From Zobellia uliginosa (GTDB lineage Bacteria > Bacteroidota > Bacteroidia > Flavobacteriales > Flavobacteriaceae), in contig NZ_FTOB01000002.1 in NCBI RefSeq assembly GCF_900156625.1, forward strand, positions 180,275 through 244,274: a DNA stretch of 64,000 bases, written 5' to 3'. The notes under the pieces were generated by a model. It made no database searches, was not told the origin of the DNA, and worked only from the letters and a program-made list of their open reading frames with translations. This document shows positions 19,547 through 44,208 of the stretch, piece by piece (positions within the stretch are counted from its first letter, which is position 1; each line of letters starts with the position of its first letter). A program made the translations under genes and the position numbers.

Positions 19547-20302
19547 ATGCAAGAACGATATCAACGAAATAGGATATATATTGATGATAAAGAGCAAGAA
19601 ATTGTTAAAGATTATCCGATAATCCTGGCCGGAAGTGGAATAGGGAGTGTAATTGCCGAATGTGCCTTGCGTTTAGGGTTTGAGAATATCACCATTATAG
19701 ATGGCGACAAGGTAGAACGATCTAATTTGAATCGGCAAAACTATACCGAAGACGATATTTCTTCTTCGAAAGTAGAGGCTATAAAGTCCAGATTAAAGGC
19801 TATTAATAATGAAGCTAATATCAAGGTTTACAACAGTTTTATAACAGAAGCCAATGTAGAGGAATTTGTAAAGGGCCATAAAGTAGCCATTAATGCGCTA
19901 GATTTTACGTCGGATATTCCATTGCAATTTGATAAAGTTTGTCAAGAAAACAATATTCCGGTAATTCATCCGTACAATTTAGGGTGGGGCGGACTTGTTA
20001 CGGTAATTGCACCCAATAGTATAGGTTTATCTGTCATTGCAAAACCAGATGAGAAATTCAATGAGGTAAATATGGTCGAATACATGTCAAGTTATATGAG
20101 GTTCTGGGGAAACCCTCAAGATTGGATAGATGAGATCATAGAGAAATACAAAAGCGAAAAAGAAAGTCTGCCACCACCACAACTTTCAATTGCTTCTTGG
20201 AAAGTTGCCGCTATGTGCACCCATATTCTTTTTAATATTGCTACGGGAAAACCGGTCAAAAAATTTCCTGAATTTTATTTGTCGACCATATTAAATTCTT
20301 GA
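19547..20302 (+). CDS. ThiF/E1-like adenylating enzyme
   Basis: A 251-residue protein of the ThiF/MoeB/E1 superfamily, which adenylates the C-terminal carboxylate of a small protein or peptide with ATP. The nucleotide-binding loop is ILAGSGIGSVIAE, followed by ITIIDGDKVERSNLNRQ (Asp and Arg of the ATP site) and the helix with SSKVEAIKSRL. The paired Cys-x-x-Cys zinc sites of some relatives are absent. The C-terminal ~80 residues (with DWIDEIIEKYKSEKES) do not match ThiF/MoeB and may hold the substrate. MccB, which modifies microcin C7, is the best known peptide-directed member. It is separate from the downstream operon (convergent LuxR gene between), so membership in the peptide system is only inferred. 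Confidence 0.8.
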   Translation: MQERYQRNRIYIDDKEQEIVKDYPIILAGSGIGSVIAECALRLGFENITIIDGDKVERSNLNRQNYTEDDISSSKVEAIKSRLKAINNEANIKVYNSFITEANVEEFVKGHKVAINALDFTSDIPLQFDKVCQENNIPVIHPYNLGWGGLVTVIAPNSIGLSVIAKPDEKFNEVNMVEYMSSYMRFWGNPQDWIDEIIEKYKSEKESLPPPQLSIASWKVAAMCTHILFNIATGKPVKKFPEFYLSTILNS

Positions 20303-20339
20303 ATATAGGTAATCTTATATTTGCCCCGACCTCAAAACC

Positions 20340-21098
20340 TTAAATGAGCTTATTATTGGTGGCATACATGATAGCTTCCGATATGTTGGTCACTTCTAAT
20401 TTGTCGAATAACTTTCTTCTGTGAAATTTTACCGTATCGGGCGATACGTAAATTGATTCGGCTATCTCGTTTATAGTTAAACCTCTAGTCGACAATTGCA
20501 ATATTTCTTTTTCCCGGGATGAGAGCTTTATTTTTTCATCCGCTTTCCAGAAGTCACCCTCTAGGTTATACTTGAAAATTTTATGATTTCCCTTTTTATA
20601 AATTTTAATATTCCCCGCTTGTCGTTCGGCCGATAAGGATACAATACATACGGCTTTCCATATTTTGCCGTTTGCGGTCAAAAATATTGGGGTCAATTTT
20701 TGATTTATTAGAATGATTTTTCCTTCTTGGTTTTTTATGTGGAAGTCATATGAAATGGTATGTTCCTTGCGTTCTTCTAAAGGAATTCTGTCATAAAACT
20801 CGAAGCCCACCTTGTTGATTTTAATGAGTAAATCCAAATCGGACTTAACTACATACTTGAAGTAGAAAGCATATCCCATCTCCTTGATTTCTTCTGCCGT
20901 ATGGCCACAAAGGAACAAGGGATTGTCCGAGACGTATTCAAACCCTCTTTTTTGATAATCAATTACATATATACTTTTGTAGGTGGCTCTTGAGAAGGCT
21001 TTTATAGCTTCTAAATAATCTAAGGCTTGTCCTTGGTTTTCTTTTGGGATTTCACCAACTGAATTCTTAAAGGAAAAGAAATCTTTCATGTCAGTCAT
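20340..21098 (-). CDS. PAS-like sensor with LuxR-type DNA-binding domain
   Basis: A 252-residue one-protein regulator. Residues about 30-160 look like a PAS fold (VIDYQKRGFEYVSDNPLFLCG, KNQEGKIILINQKLTPIF). The last ~65 residues are a GerE/LuxR helix-turn-helix (LSSREKEILQLSTRGLTINEIAESIYVSPDTVKFHRRKLFDKL). There is no classical autoinducer-binding domain. This architecture is frequent in Flavobacteriia. It is divergent from the acyltransferase gene at 21261, and the shared 162-base intergenic region holds an imperfect palindrome. It is therefore the likely local regulator of the peptide operon. Met4 (21089) is an alternative start. Confidence 0.88.
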   Translation of the reverse strand: MTDMKDFFSFKNSVGEIPKENQGQALDYLEAIKAFSRATYKSIYVIDYQKRGFEYVSDNPLFLCGHTAEEIKEMGYAFYFKYVVKSDLDLLIKINKVGFEFYDRIPLEERKEHTISYDFHIKNQEGKIILINQKLTPIFLTANGKIWKAVCIVSLSAERQAGNIKIYKKGNHKIFKYNLEGDFWKADEKIKLSSREKEILQLSTRGLTINEIAESIYVSPDTVKFHRRKLFDKLEVTNISEAIMYATNNKLI

Positions 21099-21158
21099 AG
21101 AGTCGGTTTGGTGTAGGTTTTTGTGGTTATAAATATAGCTTTTTTCTTATCATTTTGA

Positions 21159-21180
21159 AAACTACACTTTTGTATAGTTT
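21159..21180. promoter_or_regulatory. Candidate LuxR-type operator (imperfect palindrome)
   Basis: AAACTACAC-TTTT-GTATAGTTT is a 22-base sequence with 9-base arms matching at 8 positions. It lies 81 bases before the acyltransferase start and 61 bases from the regulator start. A weaker copy of its left half (AAACTACCATTTTGTGTAAAC) follows at 21196-21216. The position between divergent genes suggests binding by the LuxR-type regulator; no experimental support. Confidence 0.5.
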
Positions 21181-21260
21181 CAGATAATCAACTAAAAACT
21201 ACCATTTTGTGTAAACAAACATTACTGAATGCCTAATAGATTTGGAAGTAAAACAAGAAT

Positions 21261-21944
21261 ATGATACATCCAAAGAACTATTTAGAAAGATTAGGGGCAG
21301 ATTGTCTATACGACTTGGCCAAGTTTGTGGTCAATGAAAATTTCAAGCACCACACCAGTAGCGTTTATCCAGAAAACTATACAAAGGAAATAGGATCTAT
21401 CTTGAAAGAAGAGAAAGATTATTTCAACAATGCCCAGATTTTTGTTTCTAAGGATGAGGACAATTCCATAATAGGATCGATCAGGGTATTACGGTGGAAT
21501 TATACGGACGTATTGCCTATACAGAAAATATTCGGCATTAATCCATTGCTCCTAAATGGCCATTATATTAAAAGTTCCATTTGGCATATTGGCAGGTTTG
21601 CCATAAAGAAAGGGGTAAATGATATTAATTTATTTAAGAGACTTATGGTCTGCGCCATAGCCCCTATATGTCAAGATAAAAATGCCGTAGTCTATGCAGA
21701 ATGTGACAGTAAACTTTTAAGGGTAATGTTGGCGTTGGGGATCAAGGCCGTGCCTGTAGAGAAACCTCTTAATTATCTAGGCTCTGAAACTATTCCGGTG
21801 AGTATGCGGTACAACGGCCTAATCGATTTCTATAATAAGAATAGGTCTTTGGTTCCTGTAGATTTTTTAGGTTCTACCACTGCTCAGCAACTACCTAAAA
21901 GGGTAGTTTCCCAACCTCTTCAGCATAACTACTCTTTAGTGTAG
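21261..21944 (+). CDS. FeeM/LuxI-like N-acyltransferase (GNAT fold)
   Basis: A 227-residue protein resembling the N-acyl amino acid synthase (FeeM) and autoinducer synthase group, GNAT-fold enzymes that transfer an acyl chain from acyl-ACP to an amino group. The supporting signature is SIIGSIRVLRWNYTDVLPIQ followed by WHIGRFAIKKGVND, which matches the family pattern of a strand with Arg, an LP turn, and an E/IsRFAV-type strand. A Leu-rich helix (RLMVCAIAPIC) comes next. The ~40-residue tail is low in complexity and may be flexible. Located directly upstream of two peptide precursor genes on the same strand. It could acylate the peptides, an amino acid, or make a signal for the adjacent LuxR protein. 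Confidence 0.65.
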   Translation: MIHPKNYLERLGADCLYDLAKFVVNENFKHHTSSVYPENYTKEIGSILKEEKDYFNNAQIFVSKDEDNSIIGSIRVLRWNYTDVLPIQKIFGINPLLLNGHYIKSSIWHIGRFAIKKGVNDINLFKRLMVCAIAPICQDKNAVVYAECDSKLLRVMLALGIKAVPVEKPLNYLGSETIPVSMRYNGLIDFYNKNRSLVPVDFLGSTTAQQLPKRVVSQPLQHNYSLV

Positions 21945-22094: not shown

Positions 22095-22244
22095 ATGAAA
22101 AATTCAAACCCAGAGAAATTTTTAGATACTCAGGAATTATCAGCTCTTGAGAATCAAACATTAAAAGGAGGTACTTCAATGATCGAATCGGTCGAAGAAG
22201 AAGACAAAAAGAAAAAAGAGAAAAAAGTAACCGTTGAAAAGTAA
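22095..22244 (+). CDS. Double-glycine precursor peptide 1
   Basis: A 49-residue peptide too short for usual ORF callers. Residues 1-26 form a leader ending in LSALENQTLKGG, the double-glycine motif cut by C39 peptidases (consensus LS..EL..I.GG). The predicted core is 23 residues, starting TSMIESVEEED and ending in a Lys/Glu-rich tail with KVTVEK. It has no Cys. The adjacent peptide 2 has exactly the same first 23 residues, although seven of those codons differ by silent changes. That shows the leader is under protein-level selection and is a real gene. A C39-type ABC exporter is encoded 2 kb downstream. Function (antibacterial or signal) unknown. Confidence 0.88.
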   Translation: MKNSNPEKFLDTQELSALENQTLKGGTSMIESVEEEDKKKKEKKVTVEK

Positions 22245-22249
22245 TAATT

Positions 22250-22402
22250 ATGAAAAATTCAAACCCAGAGAAATTTTTAGACACTCAAGAACTTTCGGCT
22301 CTTGAAAACCAAACATTGACAGGTGGTAGTTCTATGGTAGAATCACTTGAAGATGCAGGTAACAAAGACAAAGAAAAGAAAAAAGAAGTTGTTGTAAAGT
22401 AA
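22250..22402 (+). CDS. Double-glycine precursor peptide 2
   Basis: A 50-residue paralogue of peptide 1, starting 5 bases after its stop. Leader residues 1-23 are identical, then Thr replaces Lys24 and Gly-Gly follows at 25-26. The predicted 24-residue core starts SSMVESLEDAG and ends with a Lys-rich VVVK. Core residues shared with peptide 1 are [ST]SM[IV]ES[VL]E[DE], so the N-terminal third of the core is conserved and the middle diverges. It also lacks Cys. A perfect hairpin comes 4 bases after its stop codon and would let the two peptides be made in excess over the enzymes downstream. Confidence 0.88.
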   Translation: MKNSNPEKFLDTQELSALENQTLTGGSSMVESLEDAGNKDKEKKKEVVVK

Positions 22403-22406
22403 GTCT

Positions 22407-22440
22407 TAATAAGGTGTCGGTGTATGCCGACACCTTATTA
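22407..22440 (+). terminator. Hairpin attenuator between precursor peptides and enzymes
   Basis: The arms TAATAAGGTGTCGG (22407-22420) and CCGACACCTTATTA (22427-22440) form a perfect 14-bp stem with a 6-base loop. No long T run follows, so partial termination or mRNA-end protection of the peptide transcript is more likely than full termination. This is the usual arrangement in bacteriocin operons. Confidence 0.8.
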
Positions 22441-22464: not shown

Positions 22465-23772
22465 ATGATGGAAGATACTAAAAAAGCATTGACCAAAGAC
22501 TGGTGGCTATTATTTATAGAAGAAAATTTTTCTTTCACTGAGACTAAAGTATTTAAAGACGTTCTCTCTGAATCTTTGCAGGAAAATTTATATAAAGGAG
22601 TGAAAGAGATGTTGCAATCAAGAATCAACCGTCTTGATATTTCAAATGGTTTTAGACTATATCAAAAGGGAGAGGAAATTGGTGATTCCAAGGTCCGAAA
22701 CCTTATAAGGGAAAACAAATTAGGCAGCCAAGAATCAATTGAATCGTATTGCAAAAGGATATTTGGGGAAAATTATGGCATTATCACCAATTATGGTGAG
22801 CGTCATTCGGATATTTTAGCTGAAAACGTTTTAGAGGCGATACAACCTCTTTTTGATATTATTGGTATTCCTCCTTGGGGAGTGGAACTTACAACCTTTA
22901 TAGGTAATTATGGGTGGACTCCCTTGGGGATACATACGGACCAAAGAGGGGAAAATGTTTTGCATTTCCATCTAGGCCCTGGTAAAAAAACAATGTACAC
23001 TTGGAATGAAGATGTCTATAAAGAGGTAGGTAAGGGCGTTTCAAACAATAAAGATGTAGAGCCCTTGCTCGAATACGCCCAAAAATATGAGTTTGGCCGA
23101 GGTGATCTTTACTATATGCCTTGGAATAAGCACCATATAGGTTTTTCCGGCGACTTTTCTATAGGGGTTACATTATGGTTTAATAATCCGACTAAATGCT
23201 CTTTTTCAAAACTAATGATCGAGTCGATCAAAAACATGTTTTTAAAAGACGATATGAATATTATAGAAAGTCAATTGGATTACCTGAACAACGAACAAAC
23301 GTTTAACGACTTCATCGGCACTTTAAATATTTCTTCCAAAACATTAAACGAACCCTTAGTAGACTTTTTGCAGTATACCTATAAAGAATATAAAAAATGT
23401 CTGTTGAGTAATGGCGGTTGGCAAAATATTCCCTTAAGGCATCACAAGAAGGTAGAGAACACGAATCATTGTTTTCCAGAATTTGAATTCAAAAAAATTG
23501 TCGGTAGCAATGTCTTCAAAATTACACATGAGAAAGAGGAAGATCGCCTATTGGTTTATGTTAGGGGGGTACGGCTATCCTTTAAGTATTTTGAAGGCCT
23601 GGTAAAGATTATTGATATGGTCAATACCGGTAAGGTAATTGAAGTTCAAGATGTTATAGAAGAAATTGACGACTTGCCAAAAGATGTGGTGATTTATTTT
23701 TTAAAAACCTTGGTAAATAATAGAGGCCTTAAAATTCAAGAGGCCCCGTTAGAGGAAATTCAATTTCAATAG
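22465..23772 (+). CDS. JmjC/cupin-like Fe(II)/2-oxoglutarate oxygenase, probable peptide-tailoring enzyme
   Basis: A 435-residue protein whose middle part has the double-stranded beta-helix oxygenase signature. H157-x-D159 (GIHTDQRGENVLHFHLGPGK) supplies two iron ligands, and GDLYYMPWNKHHIG supplies the distal His (H223 or H224). The GD-LY-P-H pattern is that of JmjC/cupin-4 ribosomal oxygenases (RoxA/YcfD, Mina53), which hydroxylate protein side chains. A ~200-residue C-terminal part (with YVRGVRLSFKYFEGLVKIID) may be a winged-helix/substrate-binding region, as in ribosomal oxygenases. It lies between the precursors and the exporter, so hydroxylation of the peptides is inferred. Cores offer Lys, Asp, Glu, Asn and Thr as targets. 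Confidence 0.75.
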   Translation: MMEDTKKALTKDWWLLFIEENFSFTETKVFKDVLSESLQENLYKGVKEMLQSRINRLDISNGFRLYQKGEEIGDSKVRNLIRENKLGSQESIESYCKRIFGENYGIITNYGERHSDILAENVLEAIQPLFDIIGIPPWGVELTTFIGNYGWTPLGIHTDQRGENVLHFHLGPGKKTMYTWNEDVYKEVGKGVSNNKDVEPLLEYAQKYEFGRGDLYYMPWNKHHIGFSGDFSIGVTLWFNNPTKCSFSKLMIESIKNMFLKDDMNIIESQLDYLNNEQTFNDFIGTLNISSKTLNEPLVDFLQYTYKEYKKCLLSNGGWQNIPLRHHKKVENTNHCFPEFEFKKIVGSNVFKITHEKEEDRLLVYVRGVRLSFKYFEGLVKIIDMVNTGKVIEVQDVIEEIDDLPKDVVIYFLKTLVNNRGLKIQEAPLEEIQFQ

Positions 23773-23824: not shown

Positions 23825-24328
23825 ATGAATTGCATTGAATTATATGAAACGTATCGGATTAAAAAAAAGAAAGACTATAAATATGTGTTCCAGACAAACG
23901 AAGGTGTGATTTATGAATTTAGTTTTAATAGGTCCGGTATACATTATAACTCTTGCTCAACAAATAAAAATATTCTAGAGCTTACCTTGAAATGTAGCTC
24001 AGTTTGTCCTAAAAAGGATTATAGAACCTTGACAACAATTGTTCATTTTGTTAAGGAGTTCTTGATAGAATATGATGCATTTTATTTACAAACGCATAAT
24101 CAGATCGAACACAAAAATACAAGAACGAAAAAACGGCGAGGATTTTCTAGGTTGAAACTTTGGACACGCATTTCAAATCGATACTTTGAGCAGTGCGATT
24201 TCCTGATGAGTCCAAATCTAAATGATTCTTATACACAGGATATACCTTGTCTCTTAATAAAAAAAGAGGCCAAGCATTATCGACAAATAGTGAGCAATTT
24301 TCATAAGTATTGTAATACGGAATTTTAA
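23825..24328 (+). CDS. Small protein resembling DUF6169
   Basis: A 167-residue protein from the ATG at 23825 (MNCIELYETY); a longer start at 23789 exists but adds twelve residues that look unrelated. No signal peptide. It has the order of short segments I associate with DUF6169: an N-terminal beta part (YKYVFQTNEGVIYEFSF), a helix (LTTIVHFVKEFLIEYDAFYLQ), a basic stretch (RTKKRRGFSRLKLWTRI) and a late LLIKKEAKHYRQIV strand-helix. It has no assigned function. Its stop overlaps into the region immediately before the exporter ATG (adjacent, no gap). This tight coupling suggests it assists the exporter or acts on the precursor. Confidence 0.6.
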   Translation: MNCIELYETYRIKKKKDYKYVFQTNEGVIYEFSFNRSGIHYNSCSTNKNILELTLKCSSVCPKKDYRTLTTIVHFVKEFLIEYDAFYLQTHNQIEHKNTRTKKRRGFSRLKLWTRISNRYFEQCDFLMSPNLNDSYTQDIPCLLIKKEAKHYRQIVSNFHKYCNTEF

Positions 24329-26524
24329 ATGATAGGGTATAAAAACAGAATAAAACTTGTACGTCAGCACGATTTAATGGATTGTGGACCAGCTTCTTTG
24401 AGTATGGTGACCTATTTCTATGGCAATAAATTCCCATTGCATTACCTAAGGGAATTATGCCAAATCGGAAAGGATGGGGTTTCTATGTCGGGAATAATTC
24501 ATGCCGCTAAAAAAATAGGAATGGAAACGTATTCCACCCGGTTGAATTTAGATCTATTGGTTAAAAAATTTACCAAGCCTTGTATTCTATATTGGAATAA
24601 AAATCACTTTCTTGTATTGGAATCCATTAGTAATAAGGGAGGTAATGTTAATTTTCATATTGCAGATCCCGCTCATGGAAAAGTGGTCTTGTCAGAAAAA
24701 GATTTTAAAGAACCATGGCTGAAAGGGGGGCAATCTGGTGTTGCTTTATTCTTGTCTCCGACCCATGATTTTTTCTTAAAGAAAAACAATAGCAATGTAA
24801 AAAATCATTTCAAGACCATCGTAAATTTTTTAAAGCCTTATAAGAAAAAGATATTGGTTTTGTCTTTTTTGATACTGTTGGGTAGTGCATTCAGTGTGAC
24901 ATTGCCATTTTTAACAGAAGCGTTGATAGATTATGGGGTTACTCCAAAAAACCTGAATTATATAAGCCTTATTCTTCTTGCCCAGTTATTTGTCTTTATA
25001 GGGATTATGACCATTAATATCTTAAGAAATTGGTTTACCTTAATTATCGGCACAAAACTCAGTGTAGATATTGTTTATTCGTATCTAGACAAGGTACTTA
25101 AACTTCCATTGAGTTTTTTCGACACAAAAAACTCTGGCGATTTTAATCAGAGAATACAAGATAATATTAAAGTAGAAAGATTCCTCACTTCTGACAGTAT
25201 CTTAACGGTCTTTTCCGCCTTATTACTGTTAGTGTATTCGGGTATTCTATTTCATTATGGCACTTCGCTTTTCTTAACTTATATAGGTCTGACTCTCGTT
25301 TCGGTCTATTGGTCTTATTACTGGTTAAAAAAGAGAGAGGTAATAGACTATAAAATATTTCTTGCCAGATCCGAAAATCAAGAAGCTATTTATGAGTTTT
25401 ACAACGGCATTAGAGAAATGAAGCTCAACCAATATGAGAGTTATAAAAAAAATCAATGGGTTGAATTACAAAACAACTTGCTACAGGCGAATATCAAATC
25501 ATTAAAAATTGAGCAGTTTCAGTCTATCGGATTTACCTTTTTCAACCAGCTCAAAAATATTTTAGTCACATTTTTGGCAGCTAATTATGTGGTGAAAGAC
25601 ATTATGACCCTTGGGGCTTTGTTAAGTGTTTCATATATCATTGGTCAAATGAATTCGCCAGTACATCAATTATTATCGTTTTTCAGATCTCAACAAGATG
25701 CCTTTTTAAGTTTTAATAGATTAAGCGAGGTATATACCCAAGAAAATGAAGAAAAGGAATCCGATAAAAAACTTGACCCCGAAAAAACTCCTGTAGATAT
25801 TAAAATACAAAATGTCAATTTCAAATATAATGTACTTTCCCATAAATATATTCTTCAAGATATCGATCTAACCATACCACGAGGAAAGATTACGGCCATT
25901 GTAGGGCATAGTGGAAGTGGAAAAACAACGTTGATGAAATTACTATTGAAGTTTTTTCCTCCCTTATCGGGGAAAATCTTTTATGGTTTAGATGAAATAA
26001 ATGGATTGTCTTCGCAAAGTATTAGGGAAAATTCAGGAATAGTGATGCAAGATGGCTATATATTCAATGATACCATTGAAAGGAATATAGCACTGAAAGA
26101 TAAAATAGTCGATAAAGAAAAATTAGAAAAGGCACTTGGGGCGGTTAATCTGTTAGGCTTCGTCAATTCATTGGCCCTAAAGGAACATACCAAAATAGGT
26201 TCGGGAGGGAATGATCTTTCGGGCGGTCAAAAACAAAGGATACTAATTGCACGGGCAATTTATAAAAATCCTAAATATATATTCTTGGATGAAGCCACTT
26301 CAGCTTTAGATGCTACCAATGAAAAAGAAGTACATAATAATTTGCAGAAGCTGTTTAAGGATAAAACGGTGGTTATAATAGCACATCGTTTAAGCACTGT
26401 TCAAAACGCCGATCAGATTATTGTTTTATCAGAAGGAAAAATGGTAGAACAAGGGACGCATACAGAATTAATAGACAAAAAAGAATTTTATTACACACTG
26501 GTTAAAGATCAATTAAATATATAA
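24329..26524 (+). CDS. C39-peptidase-containing ABC exporter (PCAT)
   Basis: A 731-residue peptidase-containing ABC transporter that removes double-glycine leaders and exports the core peptide. The C39 domain (1-130) has Q13, catalytic C19 in LMDCGPAS, H93 in NKNHFLVL and D113 in IADPAHG. A six-helix membrane domain covers about 160-440. The ATPase has Walker A GHSGSGKTT (526-534), the signature LSGGQ (630-634), and Walker B FLDEATSALD. All catalytic residues are present. It starts right after the preceding stop. In Gram-negative bacteria such exporters normally work with an HlyD-type adaptor, and none is encoded here. The partner outer-membrane gene is instead of TonB-receptor type. Confidence 0.95.
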   Translation: MIGYKNRIKLVRQHDLMDCGPASLSMVTYFYGNKFPLHYLRELCQIGKDGVSMSGIIHAAKKIGMETYSTRLNLDLLVKKFTKPCILYWNKNHFLVLESISNKGGNVNFHIADPAHGKVVLSEKDFKEPWLKGGQSGVALFLSPTHDFFLKKNNSNVKNHFKTIVNFLKPYKKKILVLSFLILLGSAFSVTLPFLTEALIDYGVTPKNLNYISLILLAQLFVFIGIMTINILRNWFTLIIGTKLSVDIVYSYLDKVLKLPLSFFDTKNSGDFNQRIQDNIKVERFLTSDSILTVFSALLLLVYSGILFHYGTSLFLTYIGLTLVSVYWSYYWLKKREVIDYKIFLARSENQEAIYEFYNGIREMKLNQYESYKKNQWVELQNNLLQANIKSLKIEQFQSIGFTFFNQLKNILVTFLAANYVVKDIMTLGALLSVSYIIGQMNSPVHQLLSFFRSQQDAFLSFNRLSEVYTQENEEKESDKKLDPEKTPVDIKIQNVNFKYNVLSHKYILQDIDLTIPRGKITAIVGHSGSGKTTLMKLLLKFFPPLSGKIFYGLDEINGLSSQSIRENSGIVMQDGYIFNDTIERNIALKDKIVDKEKLEKALGAVNLLGFVNSLALKEHTKIGSGGNDLSGGQKQRILIARAIYKNPKYIFLDEATSALDATNEKEVHNNLQKLFKDKTVVIIAHRLSTVQNADQIIVLSEGKMVEQGTHTELIDKKEFYYTLVKDQLNI

Positions 26525-26529
26525 GAATA

Positions 26530-26862
26530 ATGGGATTTAAAACATTGACAATCATTTTATTAGTTTTAGTTTTTTTGAGTTGTAGTACAACTAACCCTGT
26601 CTCATCGTCTAAGTATGAAACAGTATTCTGTACAAGCATAGACAATAGTGAGTATGCTTCGATCTATCGGATTCTTAGAGATAATTTTAATGATTTTCCA
26701 AAGAAAAGGGGTAAGAAAGTTACCTATGTAAAAAACAATATAGATTATTCGTTTCGAATAAGCTTGAAAAATAAACGCTTTAAAATGAAATATAGTAGCA
26801 ATAAGGGATACAATGACCAAATAAGCGCAATGAAGTCGAAGATTGAAAATATGGTGAAGTAA
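26530..26862 (+). CDS. Small lipoprotein of the peptide operon
   Basis: A 110-residue protein with a lipoprotein signal (VLVFLSCSTTN, Cys ~18). The remainder has alternating polar and hydrophobic segments and a Lys-rich middle (FPKKRGKKVTYVKNN). No family was recognised. It starts 5 bases after the exporter stop and ends 10 bases before the TonB-type receptor, so it belongs to the same transcript. An immunity or receptor-accessory role is possible, given that lipoproteins are frequent immunity factors for exported peptides, but nothing in the sequence proves it. Confidence 0.75.
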   Translation: MGFKTLTIILLVLVFLSCSTTNPVSSSKYETVFCTSIDNSEYASIYRILRDNFNDFPKKRGKKVTYVKNNIDYSFRISLKNKRFKMKYSSNKGYNDQISAMKSKIENMVK

Positions 26863-40696: not shown

Positions 40697-40725
40697 GAGG
40701 TATAGCAGGCATTATGTTATACCTC
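40697..40725. terminator. Palindrome spanning the subtilase stop codon
   Basis: GAGGTATA (40697-40704) pairs with TATACCTC (40718-40725) across 13 bases. The right arm overlaps the last codons and stop of the subtilase gene. It could be a terminator or the edge of a repeat unit; there is no T run. Confidence 0.45.
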
Positions 40726-43227
40726 TATCGGAATTAATGTTCTGATAGGAGTATAAATATCTACATGAATTTCTGGTGCTTCAATTGTAACAATTAAACT
40801 ATATCTAACAGTAGAATCATACATTTCAAGTTTTTTCCTCGTTCTATACCAGCCAGAAACAGGATATACAGCTATCTGATTTCTTGTAGCTAGATCTGCC
40901 CCAGATCCAATCCAAAAATCACGGTGTATTGACCCTCTATTTCTCTGCTGAGACCCGAGAAACCACTTTTCACCACCACCTGATTTATATTCACTCTGCT
41001 CTTCTTCATTCCTAGCATTTTTATTTATTCTTTTATGAAATGTCTCAGGGTCTTCCTCTCGCTTAATTACATTAAAACGTAAGCCATGTGATTGATAGCT
41101 AAACTTGTTACTGTATTTTCGGCTTCCTGGGTTTGGTTCTATAAAATAAGAAAGGGTAATGTTCAATTTTACATCTGTTTCGCTAAGAACGTCTTGAAGA
41201 ACTTCAACAGGCCATGGAAGTTCGAAATAATGAATGTCCTTAAATTTAACATTGCCATCTTTTTTGTAAGGCGTTATTTCTTCTTCGGCAATTAATGTCA
41301 ATGAATTTTTTGCACTATAGAGAGCTTTTTCTAGGTTTGGAACGCCATAACCAAAAGAACGCAATAAGTTTCTCTTCTCTACTTTATTAAAAGATCTTAC
41401 ATCTTGGATATTTTTACCGCCTAACATAGTTTGTGTCCAGTCAGCGGAATGTATCATTAATCCTCTAATTGTTTCTGGCCATAAATCAGGGTACTCGTTT
41501 TTTAGTTGAGCAGCAAAACGTGAAGCCAACGCAGTTGCTGCACTGGTGTCTCCAAATGTTTGTAGTAACGTTGTGCGATAATCTTTATTGGTGGTTAAGA
41601 GTTGTAATGAAGAAGGAGCATCGATATCACCTCTTTGGTTAATTAAATTACCTCCTTCCATAACAATGTCTGGCTTTATGGGCCAATCATTTTCCCATAT
41701 AATTGACGTAGAATTAGCAGGCGACATTCCTCCTCTTTCTGCCAGCAATTTTGAATCTGGAAACTCATCATTGTTCACTGTGTCCATTTCTGTATATGCA
41801 CCTACAGTTACCGCATTAAATGCTTGAGCAGGATCATGGACTGATTCATAAATGTTTTTATCTGGAAATTCATCGGGCTTTTCAATAACAATGTTACCTC
41901 CAGAAACAAAGAACAGTTGCTTTTCTAGGATTTCATCTTCATTGCCGAATGTTATTTTGTCAATAGCAGCAGACCAAGATGAAGGACGACCATAATACGC
42001 TTGATTTTTATCTGTTACCGCCATACAGTAGATACGTGGTCGAAAAGGAGCCACAATAATAGGTGAACTAGCTGCATCAATAGTAACAGAGCCATAAAGT
42101 TCAGGGTCGTGAGGGTCTCGTTTATTAATTATTTTGACAGATTCTAATTGATGAAAAATTTGAATATTGCTTATTGAGGACATTACAGTTGCAAGGTCAC
42201 CATATAAGGCAAGACCAGCCATGCCCGTGCCGTGTCCACCTTGAATTTCACTACCGCTGTCATGGATTCCCCAGCTATCAGGTTTATAACTAAAGAGATT
42301 ACTATTGGGGATAAATTCTCTCAGTAATGGATGTTGATTATTAACCCCTGAGTCTAATATACAAACAGCGATGCTATTTTCATCTGTATGGTTTTCAATT
42401 CTGCTTAGAAGTTCATTTACAGCATCTTCTTTTTCAAATAAATTTAAGTTGATAAAGAAGTCAGCCGTTTCTTTTGGTTTTCTTAATTCGGCTAGATTAT
42501 CTAATAAAAAAAGGGATTGTGATAGTTGTCGAGGAGAAGCCTTTACTAATTTAATAAAGTGTTCAGGGAAGATTAACTCTTGATTTGAAATTTGAGCATC
42601 AACCGCTTCTAATTGCTTAATGATTTTATTATATTCAGAAGTTGTGTCAACGCCTCTTTTCCTTCTAAACCAAACTTCCCACCAAACCACTTCATGTTCT
42701 TCCGGAAACGGAATTTCCTTAGGTTCTGTCCAAAACTCACGTAATGTCGCAAGTTTTATAGCTGACAAATTACTAACTAATTTAGCGTGACTTGGTTTTT
42801 CAGTTGTTGATAGAATATACTCATTCACTCTTGATAAGAAGTGGGAAATTCCCCCTTCAGTTAACATTACTAAAACCCTGAATCTTTCCTTTTCTTGTAC
42901 CTTTTCAAGTTTTATACTTAATAACTGATATTTAGCATTTTCAGCATTACTATGAAGGCTTTCAAAAGCCGGCTCAATATCAAAATCAGAAATAAATTCT
43001 ACATAAATGACATTATCTCTCTCAATTCCTTCGGGGGTAGATTGTCCCTTATTATACGCAAATTGATTTCTAATTTGCTCTAAGTGACTTTTTATTTTGT
43101 TTCCGTGCTGTATTCTGTTTCTTGAAATTGGAGCATCTGGGTAGAATGACCTTGGACTAGTGTAGTTTTCAGTCCTTGAATAGCCTTCAATTTTTATATG
43201 TCGCAGTGGGTTTTGGTTAGCCATCAA
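40717..43227 (-). CDS. Subtilisin-like S8 protease, IetS-like
   Basis: An 836-residue S8-family protease without a signal peptide. The N-terminal ~270 residues are non-catalytic. The triad is in AVCILDSGVNNQHPLL (Asp), GGHGTGMAGLAL (His) and FGDTSAATALASRFAAQL (Ser). The C-terminal ~200 residues are a beta-rich extra domain. The AAA ATPase gene ends 3 bases upstream. Cytoplasmic subtilase plus AAA ATPase, in this order and with these sizes, is the arrangement of the IetAS system reported as plasmid-incompatibility and anti-phage defence. All catalytic motifs look intact. A regulated protease that triggers on invasion is the inferred role. Confidence 0.85.
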   Translation of the reverse strand: MMANQNPLRHIKIEGYSRTENYTSPRSFYPDAPISRNRIQHGNKIKSHLEQIRNQFAYNKGQSTPEGIERDNVIYVEFISDFDIEPAFESLHSNAENAKYQLLSIKLEKVQEKERFRVLVMLTEGGISHFLSRVNEYILSTTEKPSHAKLVSNLSAIKLATLREFWTEPKEIPFPEEHEVVWWEVWFRRKRGVDTTSEYNKIIKQLEAVDAQISNQELIFPEHFIKLVKASPRQLSQSLFLLDNLAELRKPKETADFFINLNLFEKEDAVNELLSRIENHTDENSIAVCILDSGVNNQHPLLREFIPNSNLFSYKPDSWGIHDSGSEIQGGHGTGMAGLALYGDLATVMSSISNIQIFHQLESVKIINKRDPHDPELYGSVTIDAASSPIIVAPFRPRIYCMAVTDKNQAYYGRPSSWSAAIDKITFGNEDEILEKQLFFVSGGNIVIEKPDEFPDKNIYESVHDPAQAFNAVTVGAYTEMDTVNNDEFPDSKLLAERGGMSPANSTSIIWENDWPIKPDIVMEGGNLINQRGDIDAPSSLQLLTTNKDYRTTLLQTFGDTSAATALASRFAAQLKNEYPDLWPETIRGLMIHSADWTQTMLGGKNIQDVRSFNKVEKRNLLRSFGYGVPNLEKALYSAKNSLTLIAEEEITPYKKDGNVKFKDIHYFELPWPVEVLQDVLSETDVKLNITLSYFIEPNPGSRKYSNKFSYQSHGLRFNVIKREEDPETFHKRINKNARNEEEQSEYKSGGGEKWFLGSQQRNRGSIHRDFWIGSGADLATRNQIAVYPVSGWYRTRKKLEMYDSTVRYSLIVTIEAPEIHVDIYTPIRTLIPIEV

Positions 43228-43230
43228 AGA

Positions 43231-44208
43231 TTATTGTTTTCGCTTATCGAGAGAAGTCAAAAGAGACGATACGGCAATTTTACTTTTACCCATAATTATC
43301 ATTTCCTTTATAGCTTCTTCGCAAGCTCCAACAATATCAGAGTAGCTCAACCCAATGGCTTCTTTTGCAATTTTGTCAAGAGAAGTTCTTGTTGATAGTG
43401 AAAAACCAGATAGATTTTTTTTCAACACTTTTTTTATTTCTCCGACTTCTGGTAATGGGTATCTAATTATATCATCAAATCTTCTGAACAGTGCTTTGTC
43501 TAATAATTCTGGTAAGTTAGTCGCGGCAATTATAATGCTATTAGACTGATCTTTTTCGATGTTAATCAGAAAACTATTTAAAACTCTTTTAATTTCTCCT
43601 ACATCCTGTCCCTGATCACGCTGTGCTCCAATCGAATCAAATTCGTCAAACAAATAAACCCCTCTGTAATCTTCCATCGCATCAAATATCATTCTCAGTT
43701 TGGCAATTGATTCCCCCATAAACTTAGACATAAGGCCATCTAATCGAATTATAAAAACTGGAAGACCTAATTCTCCTGCCAAAGCTTGAGCGGTCATTGT
43801 TTTTCCACATCCTGGCAATCCGGTCAATAATAATTTTCTTTTTGGGCTCAGGTTATGCTGTCTTAGAAGATCTATCTTTCTTTGTTCTTGAATAACACGA
43901 TTCAAAGATTCACGTACTTGCTTATCTAAAACCATATCATTGAGCTTGATCTTGGGTTGAAATACCTCAATGAGTTCATTTAATTCTCTTTTTGGTTTAG
44001 AGATAGAAATGGTTCTAGCTTTATCTGAAAAAGAATTGGAACGTTCTTTTTTTGCTCGCTCAATTAGATTTTTAAGTTCTTGAGCAAAAGTAGTATGCCC
44101 CTTTCTAGCTTCAGAGGCTGCAATTTGCATAGCAGTAGCAAAGAATCGAGGTTCATCCCCATCCCCAAAAGATTTGATTAAACTTTTTATTTGTTCTGCT
44201 GCTGCCAT
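43231..44208 (-). CDS. AAA-family ATPase, IetA-like
   Basis: A 325-residue AAA protein. The N-terminal ~100 residues are helical. Walker A is LTGLPGCGKTMTAQALAGEL, Walker B is GVYLFDEFDSIGAQRDQG (hhhhDE), followed by sensor 1 (IIIAATNLPE) and the arginine-finger region (DKALFRRFDDIIRYPLP). These are features of the classical 26S-protease/FtsH-like AAA clade, but without transmembrane or protease parts. It is the first gene of the two-gene unit with the subtilase. In the IetAS system such an ATPase partners the protease, presumably to control or feed it. The 5' flank carries AT-rich block C. Confidence 0.87.
   Translation of the reverse strand: MAAAEQIKSLIKSFGDGDEPRFFATAMQIAASEARKGHTTFAQELKNLIERAKKERSNSFSDKARTISISKPKRELNELIEVFQPKIKLNDMVLDKQVRESLNRVIQEQRKIDLLRQHNLSPKRKLLLTGLPGCGKTMTAQALAGELGLPVFIIRLDGLMSKFMGESIAKLRMIFDAMEDYRGVYLFDEFDSIGAQRDQGQDVGEIKRVLNSFLINIEKDQSNSIIIAATNLPELLDKALFRRFDDIIRYPLPEVGEIKKVLKKNLSGFSLSTRTSLDKIAKEAIGLSYSDIVGACEEAIKEMIIMGKSKIAVSSLLTSLDKRKQ

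Follow-up and report, generated by a model that had tools for sequence, protein, structure and literature searches.

Two short adjacent ORFs of Zobellia uliginosa, found in a 64,000-nucleotide stretch of DNA (the window), are, judging from comparisons with their homologues, real precursor genes whose leader region is under selection. It is fairly probable that they encode RiPP-like secreted peptides, whose cores would be hydroxylated by a leader-guided JmjC enzyme, cleaved and exported by a C39 exporter and transported by an outer-membrane barrel, with an upstream ThiF/LuxR/GNAT triad acting as a switch. The elements of the locus are the following.

19547-20302, plus strand: ThiF/E1-like adenylyltransferase, third member of the triad
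20340-21098, minus strand: regulator of the LuxR type (GerE), transcribed divergently to the GNAT gene
21261-21944, plus strand: GNAT-type acyltransferase, weakly FeeM/LuxI-like, member of the triad
22095-22244, plus strand: precursor peptide 1, 49 aa (ATG 22095, TAA 22244)
22250-22402, plus strand: precursor peptide 2, 50 aa (ATG 22250, TAA 22402)
22407-22440, plus strand: strong RNA hairpin (-23 kcal/mol, z -5.9), located after precursor gene 2 and ahead of the enzyme gene
22465-23772, plus strand: predicted ribosomal-oxygenase-like JmjC 2-oxoglutarate oxygenase, 435 aa, triad H157/D159/H224
23825-24328, plus strand: protein of 167 aa without Pfam or NCBIfam match
24329-26524, plus strand: ABC exporter with N-terminal peptidase C39 domain (Pfam, C39 E 2.6e-31)
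26530-26862, plus strand: putative lipoprotein, 110 aa
26873-29242, plus strand: TonB-dependent-receptor-like outer-membrane barrel (Pfam PF14905, OMP_b-brl_3)

Peptide 1 (MKNSNPEKFLDTQELSALENQTLKGGTSMIESVEEEDKKKKEKKVTVEK) and peptide 2 (MKNSNPEKFLDTQELSALENQTLTGGSSMVESLEDAGNKDKEKKKEVVVK) are encoded by ORFs separated by a gap of 5 bases from stop to start. Both feature a leader spanning residues 1-26 and ending in Gly-Gly, followed by a core, TSMIESVEEEDKKKKEKKVTVEK in the former and SSMVESLEDAGNKDKEKKKEVVVK in the latter. An earlier note on this DNA had reported that the peptides share residues 1-23 (MKNSNPEKFLDTQELSALENQTL) in spite of seven synonymously different codons, and that Gly-Gly lies at 25-26 in both. 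All this is borne out, exact coordinates included, as 23/23 residues are identical. The seven codons (11, 13, 15, 16, 19, 20 and 23) host eight nucleotide changes, and 8/8 are silent. The Gly25 codon is an eighth one differing synonymously, and the sole replacement found in the leader is K/T at residue 24. About 13 of the 69 sites of the 23 codons are synonymous. Eight random changes are expected to be all silent with P ~1.8e-6, and the protein was kept in 0/200,000 simulations of random changes.

It may be argued that the pair arose by chance or is a duplication in decay, and that a recent duplication or gene conversion accounts for the identity. Codons 1-10 are indeed identical at the DNA level, and either recent conversion or a constraint on the start region may be behind the identity of these first 30 bases. 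The eight synonymous changes all fall within codons 11-23, where no replacements are found, and neither conversion nor start-region constraint explains this pattern. The same leader, in addition, is found in other genera and phyla. An origin by chance or decay is extremely improbable, and is refuted by the homologues. No further copies of the precursors, beyond the window pair, were found in the 5.3 Mb genome.

The relatives were identified in two steps. The first search, a family-level genome scan in which the 435 aa enzyme was the query, detected three further clusters featuring C39 exporters and short polyQ-tailed ORFs. The wider search, in which a four-row enzyme alignment was run against ~85,000 species genomes, identified 16 enzyme loci besides the window, found in Bacteroidota (Tenacibaculum, Aquimarina, Cruoricaptor, Chryseobacterium, Chitinophaga, Altibacter, Kordia, Riemerella, Pedobacter, Flavobacterium) and, outside this phylum, in Chromobacterium. 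Both strands of the 16 loci and of the window were scanned with a leader pattern. The 26 matches all directly adjoin the enzyme gene, and none was found away from it in the scanned loci. A slightly wider pattern added the precursors of Chromobacterium (MTKENQVAQLEKEQDIKDFLGIQVLTPAEEISVSGGGQHQEKQQEQQHVD) and of a Bergeyella plasmid, the latter of the polyQ type. Complete leader-bearing ORFs are 28 in total, window pair included; in UBA4166 (L025) the leader and the start of a polyQ tract are readable, and are followed by a run of N. Two of the 16 loci were set aside, one cut by a contig end (L030), the other a long-branch outgroup which lacks this leader (L031). Leader-matching short ORFs are present in 14/14 of the remaining loci, plus the one Bergeyella plasmid, and in every usable locus the enzyme gene directly adjoins the precursors. 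The wider leader pattern found no matches in ten GNAT gene neighbourhoods, nor in the loci of more distant enzyme homologues. Scans at the level of class and of phylum (395 genomes each) added only one more enzyme-like gene, of a 402-409 aa sister type and with no precursor detected by the leader pattern, and the family is therefore rare.

Some of these loci deserve a description. The Bergeyella porcorum plasmid (L060, 3580-8023) hosts a polyQ-type cluster with an 18-Gln precursor, in which enzyme and exporter genes are in pieces. Sister enzymes of 402-409 aa are encoded in L014 (6591-7820), L015 (6278-7507) and L059 (6077-7285). Those of L014 and L015 show 24-25% identity, and the HxD motif is replaced in them by HKE. 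No leader-type ORF was found near any of the three, which are read as a non-peptide branch. In two Nostoc plasmids short ORFs (L061, 4708-4881; L062, 4734-4868) lie directly upstream of a distant enzyme homologue (26-28% identity). They consist of the tandem repeats (LKTGVRPDG)n and (LKVGVRPDA)n, and in L062 genes resembling those of LysRS and ornithine decarboxylase come next. The repeat ORFs may represent a further ribosomal substrate for enzymes of this group.

In the alignment of 26 precursors Met1, Leu10, Gly25 and Gly26 are invariant, Phe9 and Leu15 nearly invariant, and the leader ends in GG in 26/26; precursor length varies from 41 to 69 aa across the family. Ten Lys-type paralogues from three genomes, analyzed as a pool, gave a pN/pS of 0.118 for the leader and 0.507 for the core, ratios to be taken as descriptive, as pairs share ancestry. 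The leader read in the two shifted frames gave values of 0.97 and 3.7, and stops. Leaders are under purifying selection, and cores much less so. The homologues were also searched for frame-breaking changes, and none was found inside any leader. The conclusions reached earlier from the window pair, that the ORFs are real genes and that the leader is selected, are sustained by these ratios and by the recurrence of the leader in 27 further short ORFs adjoining the same enzyme gene elsewhere. The core motif [ST]SM[IV]ES[VL]E[DE] fared differently. Both window peptides have it, whereas the family at large does not, as the cores of the relatives differ. The partner enzyme, the low-complexity theme of the cores and the family itself are additions to the earlier note.

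Cores are indeed of several kinds. They are Lys/Glu-rich in the window, polyQ tracts of 7-18 residues in other loci, GHHHDHD in Chitinophaga, and CKCKCKCK once, in L018. Lys-type cores are composed of Lys (31%), Val (15%), Glu (15%) and Asp (9%). PolyQ tracts are encoded by mixed CAA/CAG codons, and are therefore not the result of simple repeat slippage. The CKCKCKCK precursor (L018, 8662-8814) is located amid Lys/Glu-rich sister precursors. Two tandem enzyme genes adjoin one precursor in the Chitinophaga loci L023 (8992-11541) and L027 (8968-11514); the precursor core ends in GHHHDHDSVEAA, and is nearly identical in the two species. None of the 26 precursors matched Pfam or NCBIfam models above the curated cut-offs (best E 0.026 and 0.022), and no family was matched by more than three of them. 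Short genes combining a conserved leader with a variable core, next to a candidate modifying enzyme, the predicted JmjC oxygenase, conform to the organization of RiPP loci.

The enzyme has no match in Pfam and NCBIfam. JmjC_2 was detected in two homologues at 14.9 and 14.7 bits, and as the Pfam cut-off is 22, the protein is classed as similar to JmjC_2 in fold rather than as a curated member of the family. Sequence searches against PHROGs and PDB gave nothing useful. An AlphaFold (AF2) model, built from 18 homologues, has a mean pLDDT of 87.6, and among PDB structures Foldseek places it closest to YcfD/RoxA of E. coli and to NO66 and MINA53, both human (E 1.6e-13). The superposition to YcfD (Z 17.7, rmsd 5.2) involves 322 residues over the span 7-426 of the model. 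The predicted similarity covers nearly the whole length, C-terminal part included, and the model displays both the double-stranded beta-helix fold and the HxD...H triad. H157, D159 and H224 are invariant in the 18 homologues, and align with H125, D127 and H187 of RoxA, its Fe(II) ligands. We accordingly predict that the protein is a JmjC 2-oxoglutarate hydroxylase of the ribosomal-oxygenase-like kind, and that its iron triad is intact. It differs from RoxA/YcfD, MINA53 and NO66 in sequence (~13% identity), and for being linked to peptide precursors rather than to ribosomal proteins.

Ribosomal oxygenases act on ribosomal proteins, so that the JmjC enzyme could act on another target. In such a case the peptides would be unmodified bacteriocins or signals with a Gly-Gly leader, released through the C39 exporter, and the enzyme would work elsewhere, for example on a ribosomal protein in self-protection or regulation. 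Gly-Gly peptides are often unmodified among known bacteriocins, and the enzyme fold is that of ribosomal oxygenases. However, the enzyme gene is a constant neighbour of the precursors, has been duplicated in Chitinophaga along with the distinct HHHDHD core, and belongs to clades that follow core type; furthermore, none of the cores looks hydrophobic or amphipathic in the manner of antimicrobial peptides. We regard unmodified peptides as not very likely. In the enzyme tree the five enzymes linked to Lys-rich cores form one clade (support 100/99, 200/200 bootstrap trees), and core types are clustered, as 0/200 shuffles gave values as low. The correlation, which involves few clades only, fits an enzyme that sees the core as substrate; the same correlation would be expected if the cassette were simply inherited as a unit.

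The exporter encoded downstream has in its C39 domain visible Gln-x5-Cys, His and Asp residues, and is expected to cleave after Gly-Gly. Leaders ending in Gly-Gly, or Gly-Ala, and an adjacent C39 exporter are what is found with C39 substrates. The leaders of this family resemble known Gly-Gly/C39-PCAT leaders, being short and having a conserved Leu at -12, as well as Leu at -4 and Glu at -8, and preceding variable cores. They differ in the hydrophobic residue, located at -9 and not at -7; the lack of the usual residue at -7 counts against the main reading. Low-complexity cores (Lys/Glu, polyQ, HHHDHD) further set the family apart from known bacteriocins. The window, L018 and L019, which are the nearest loci, share the 167 aa protein. 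Its predicted model has a pLDDT of 59.5, and relatedness to the 120 aa protein of the other cluster type was looked for and not found. The position of the putative lipoprotein is similarly kept in L018 and L019. Most related loci feature one strong stem-loop at the same place after the precursor gene. Its position is kept and its sequence varies by locus, as for attenuators in RiPP operons, and the 22407-22440 hairpin is likely an attenuator or partial terminator. Elsewhere in the window (40717-44208, minus strand) adjacent subtilisin-type protease-like and AAA ATPase-like genes, named by eye, were found, and may work together.

The barrel raises the possibility that the product is a metallophore-like metal binder, in which hydroxylated Lys/Asp/Glu, His or Cys cores would be exported and retaken via the TonB-type barrel. 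The HHHDHD and CKCKCKCK cores would suit such a role, but polyQ cores have no evident metal ligands, and barrels of the same PF14905 family also accompany graspetide loci, where they have been proposed to serve in export (PMC8939145). A metallophore is compatible with leader-guided hydroxylation rather than exclusive of it; as a description of the product we hold it unlikely.

The triad upstream of the precursors was found in the window (19547-21944) and at L018, L019 and L046-L055, and is highly conserved in Flavobacteriaceae. The GNAT profile has matches in 12/388 family genomes, and FeeM-like matches were obtained for 9/12 GNAT homologues. A search of PDB with the profile gave no match, hence the kinship is argued from weak Pfam matches only. 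In the ten GNAT neighbourhoods ThiF, LuxR and GNAT genes are found together, with LuxR divergent, except that ThiF is missing in L054. The operons located downstream, named by eye, differ. Peptides resembling NHLP precursors and exporters are encoded in L050 and L054, CCGG-bearing peptides in L049, HTTM-like membrane proteins and a barrel in L046 and L048, and there are further kinds besides these.

Lysine-acylated RiPPs are known (PMC13060382), and the GNAT might in the same way as in selidamides or nostolysamides attach a fatty acyl chain to core lysines, the JmjC enzyme being accessory. Lys-rich cores do adjoin the GNAT gene in the window, L018 and L019, and the FeeM-like matches mentioned above point in the same direction. 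Yet the same GNAT, ThiF and LuxR genes precede quite different operons, and are not dedicated to precursor clusters; the Lys-core locus L033 lacks the triad in spite of long flanks; in Kordia the GNAT gene is ~1.1 Mb from the peptide cluster. Distribution and contexts argue against a lysine-acylating GNAT, which is quite unlikely. Because of the differing operons and the absence from L033, the triad is better viewed as a signalling or regulatory module than as a tailoring one. It is probably a separate recurring module which regulates the cluster, and resembles signalling modules of the LuxI/LuxR type, for which Flavobacteriaceae are not known.

Returning to hydroxylation guided by the leader, the steps may be envisaged as follows. 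The 26-residue leader would be bound by the JmjC enzyme, which would hydroxylate side chains of the core. Lys would be the most likely target in the window, Gln or His in polyQ and HHHDHD relatives. This is a guess, as Lys, Gln, His and Cys-Lys cores have no obvious common acceptor. The leader would also be recognized by the C39 domain of the exporter, and the cut after Gly25-Gly26 would deliver the core to the periplasm. Passage through the outer membrane might then fall to the OMP_b-brl_3 barrel, which would either let the product out or serve as receptor for its re-uptake. The hairpin would keep the output of the precursor genes above that of the enzyme gene, and the triad would probably switch the cluster on via an acyl-type signal.

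Two known systems are close to this arrangement. In biphenomycin, a RiPP, Orn is the residue hydroxylated by the JmjC enzyme BipG/PbsQ (PMC12707348, PMC12257519). There too, a JmjC/cupin 2-oxoglutarate oxygenase adjoins RiPP precursors, and a basic side chain is the substrate, as is proposed here. Biphenomycin clusters encode further enzymes besides JmjC (MNIO, arginase, B12 radical SAM); in the present family JmjC is the only recognizable modifying enzyme, leaders are of the Gly-Gly type, export would be by C39 exporters, and hosts are mainly Bacteroidota. Graspetide loci of the grasp-with-spasm type of Bacteroidota similarly feature a Gly-Gly-type leader, a C39 exporter and a PF14905 barrel nearby. 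They differ in having an ATP-grasp ligase in place of the JmjC enzyme; no such ligase was detected among those window genes that were submitted to Pfam. No description of clusters of this sort was found in the part of the literature that was searched. The single parts are known, and the combination, above all polyQ or Lys-rich cores with JmjC as the only recognizable maturase, appears to be new. We tentatively suggest, with less assurance than for the peptide of the window, an undescribed RiPP class, mostly of Bacteroidota, in which maturation would be left to JmjC alone, by multiple hydroxylation of homopolymer-like cores (polyQ, polylysine-like, His/Asp) presented by a Gly-Gly leader, some members being controlled by a LuxR/FeeM-like switch. 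Such a class, if real, would include secreted bacterial polyglutamine peptides.

If the proposed pathway is correct, a family of peptide natural products has been missed twice by family models, as precursors have no model and the enzyme falls below the JmjC cut-off. Ribosomal-oxygenase-type hydroxylases would have been reused as stand-alone peptide maturases working on repetitive cores, and the locus would offer a simple system, directly testable in E. coli, for leader-guided hydroxylation of polyQ or Lys-rich peptides. The presence of the triad before several unrelated secretion and natural-product operons would in turn raise the question of LuxI/LuxR-like signalling in Flavobacteriaceae.
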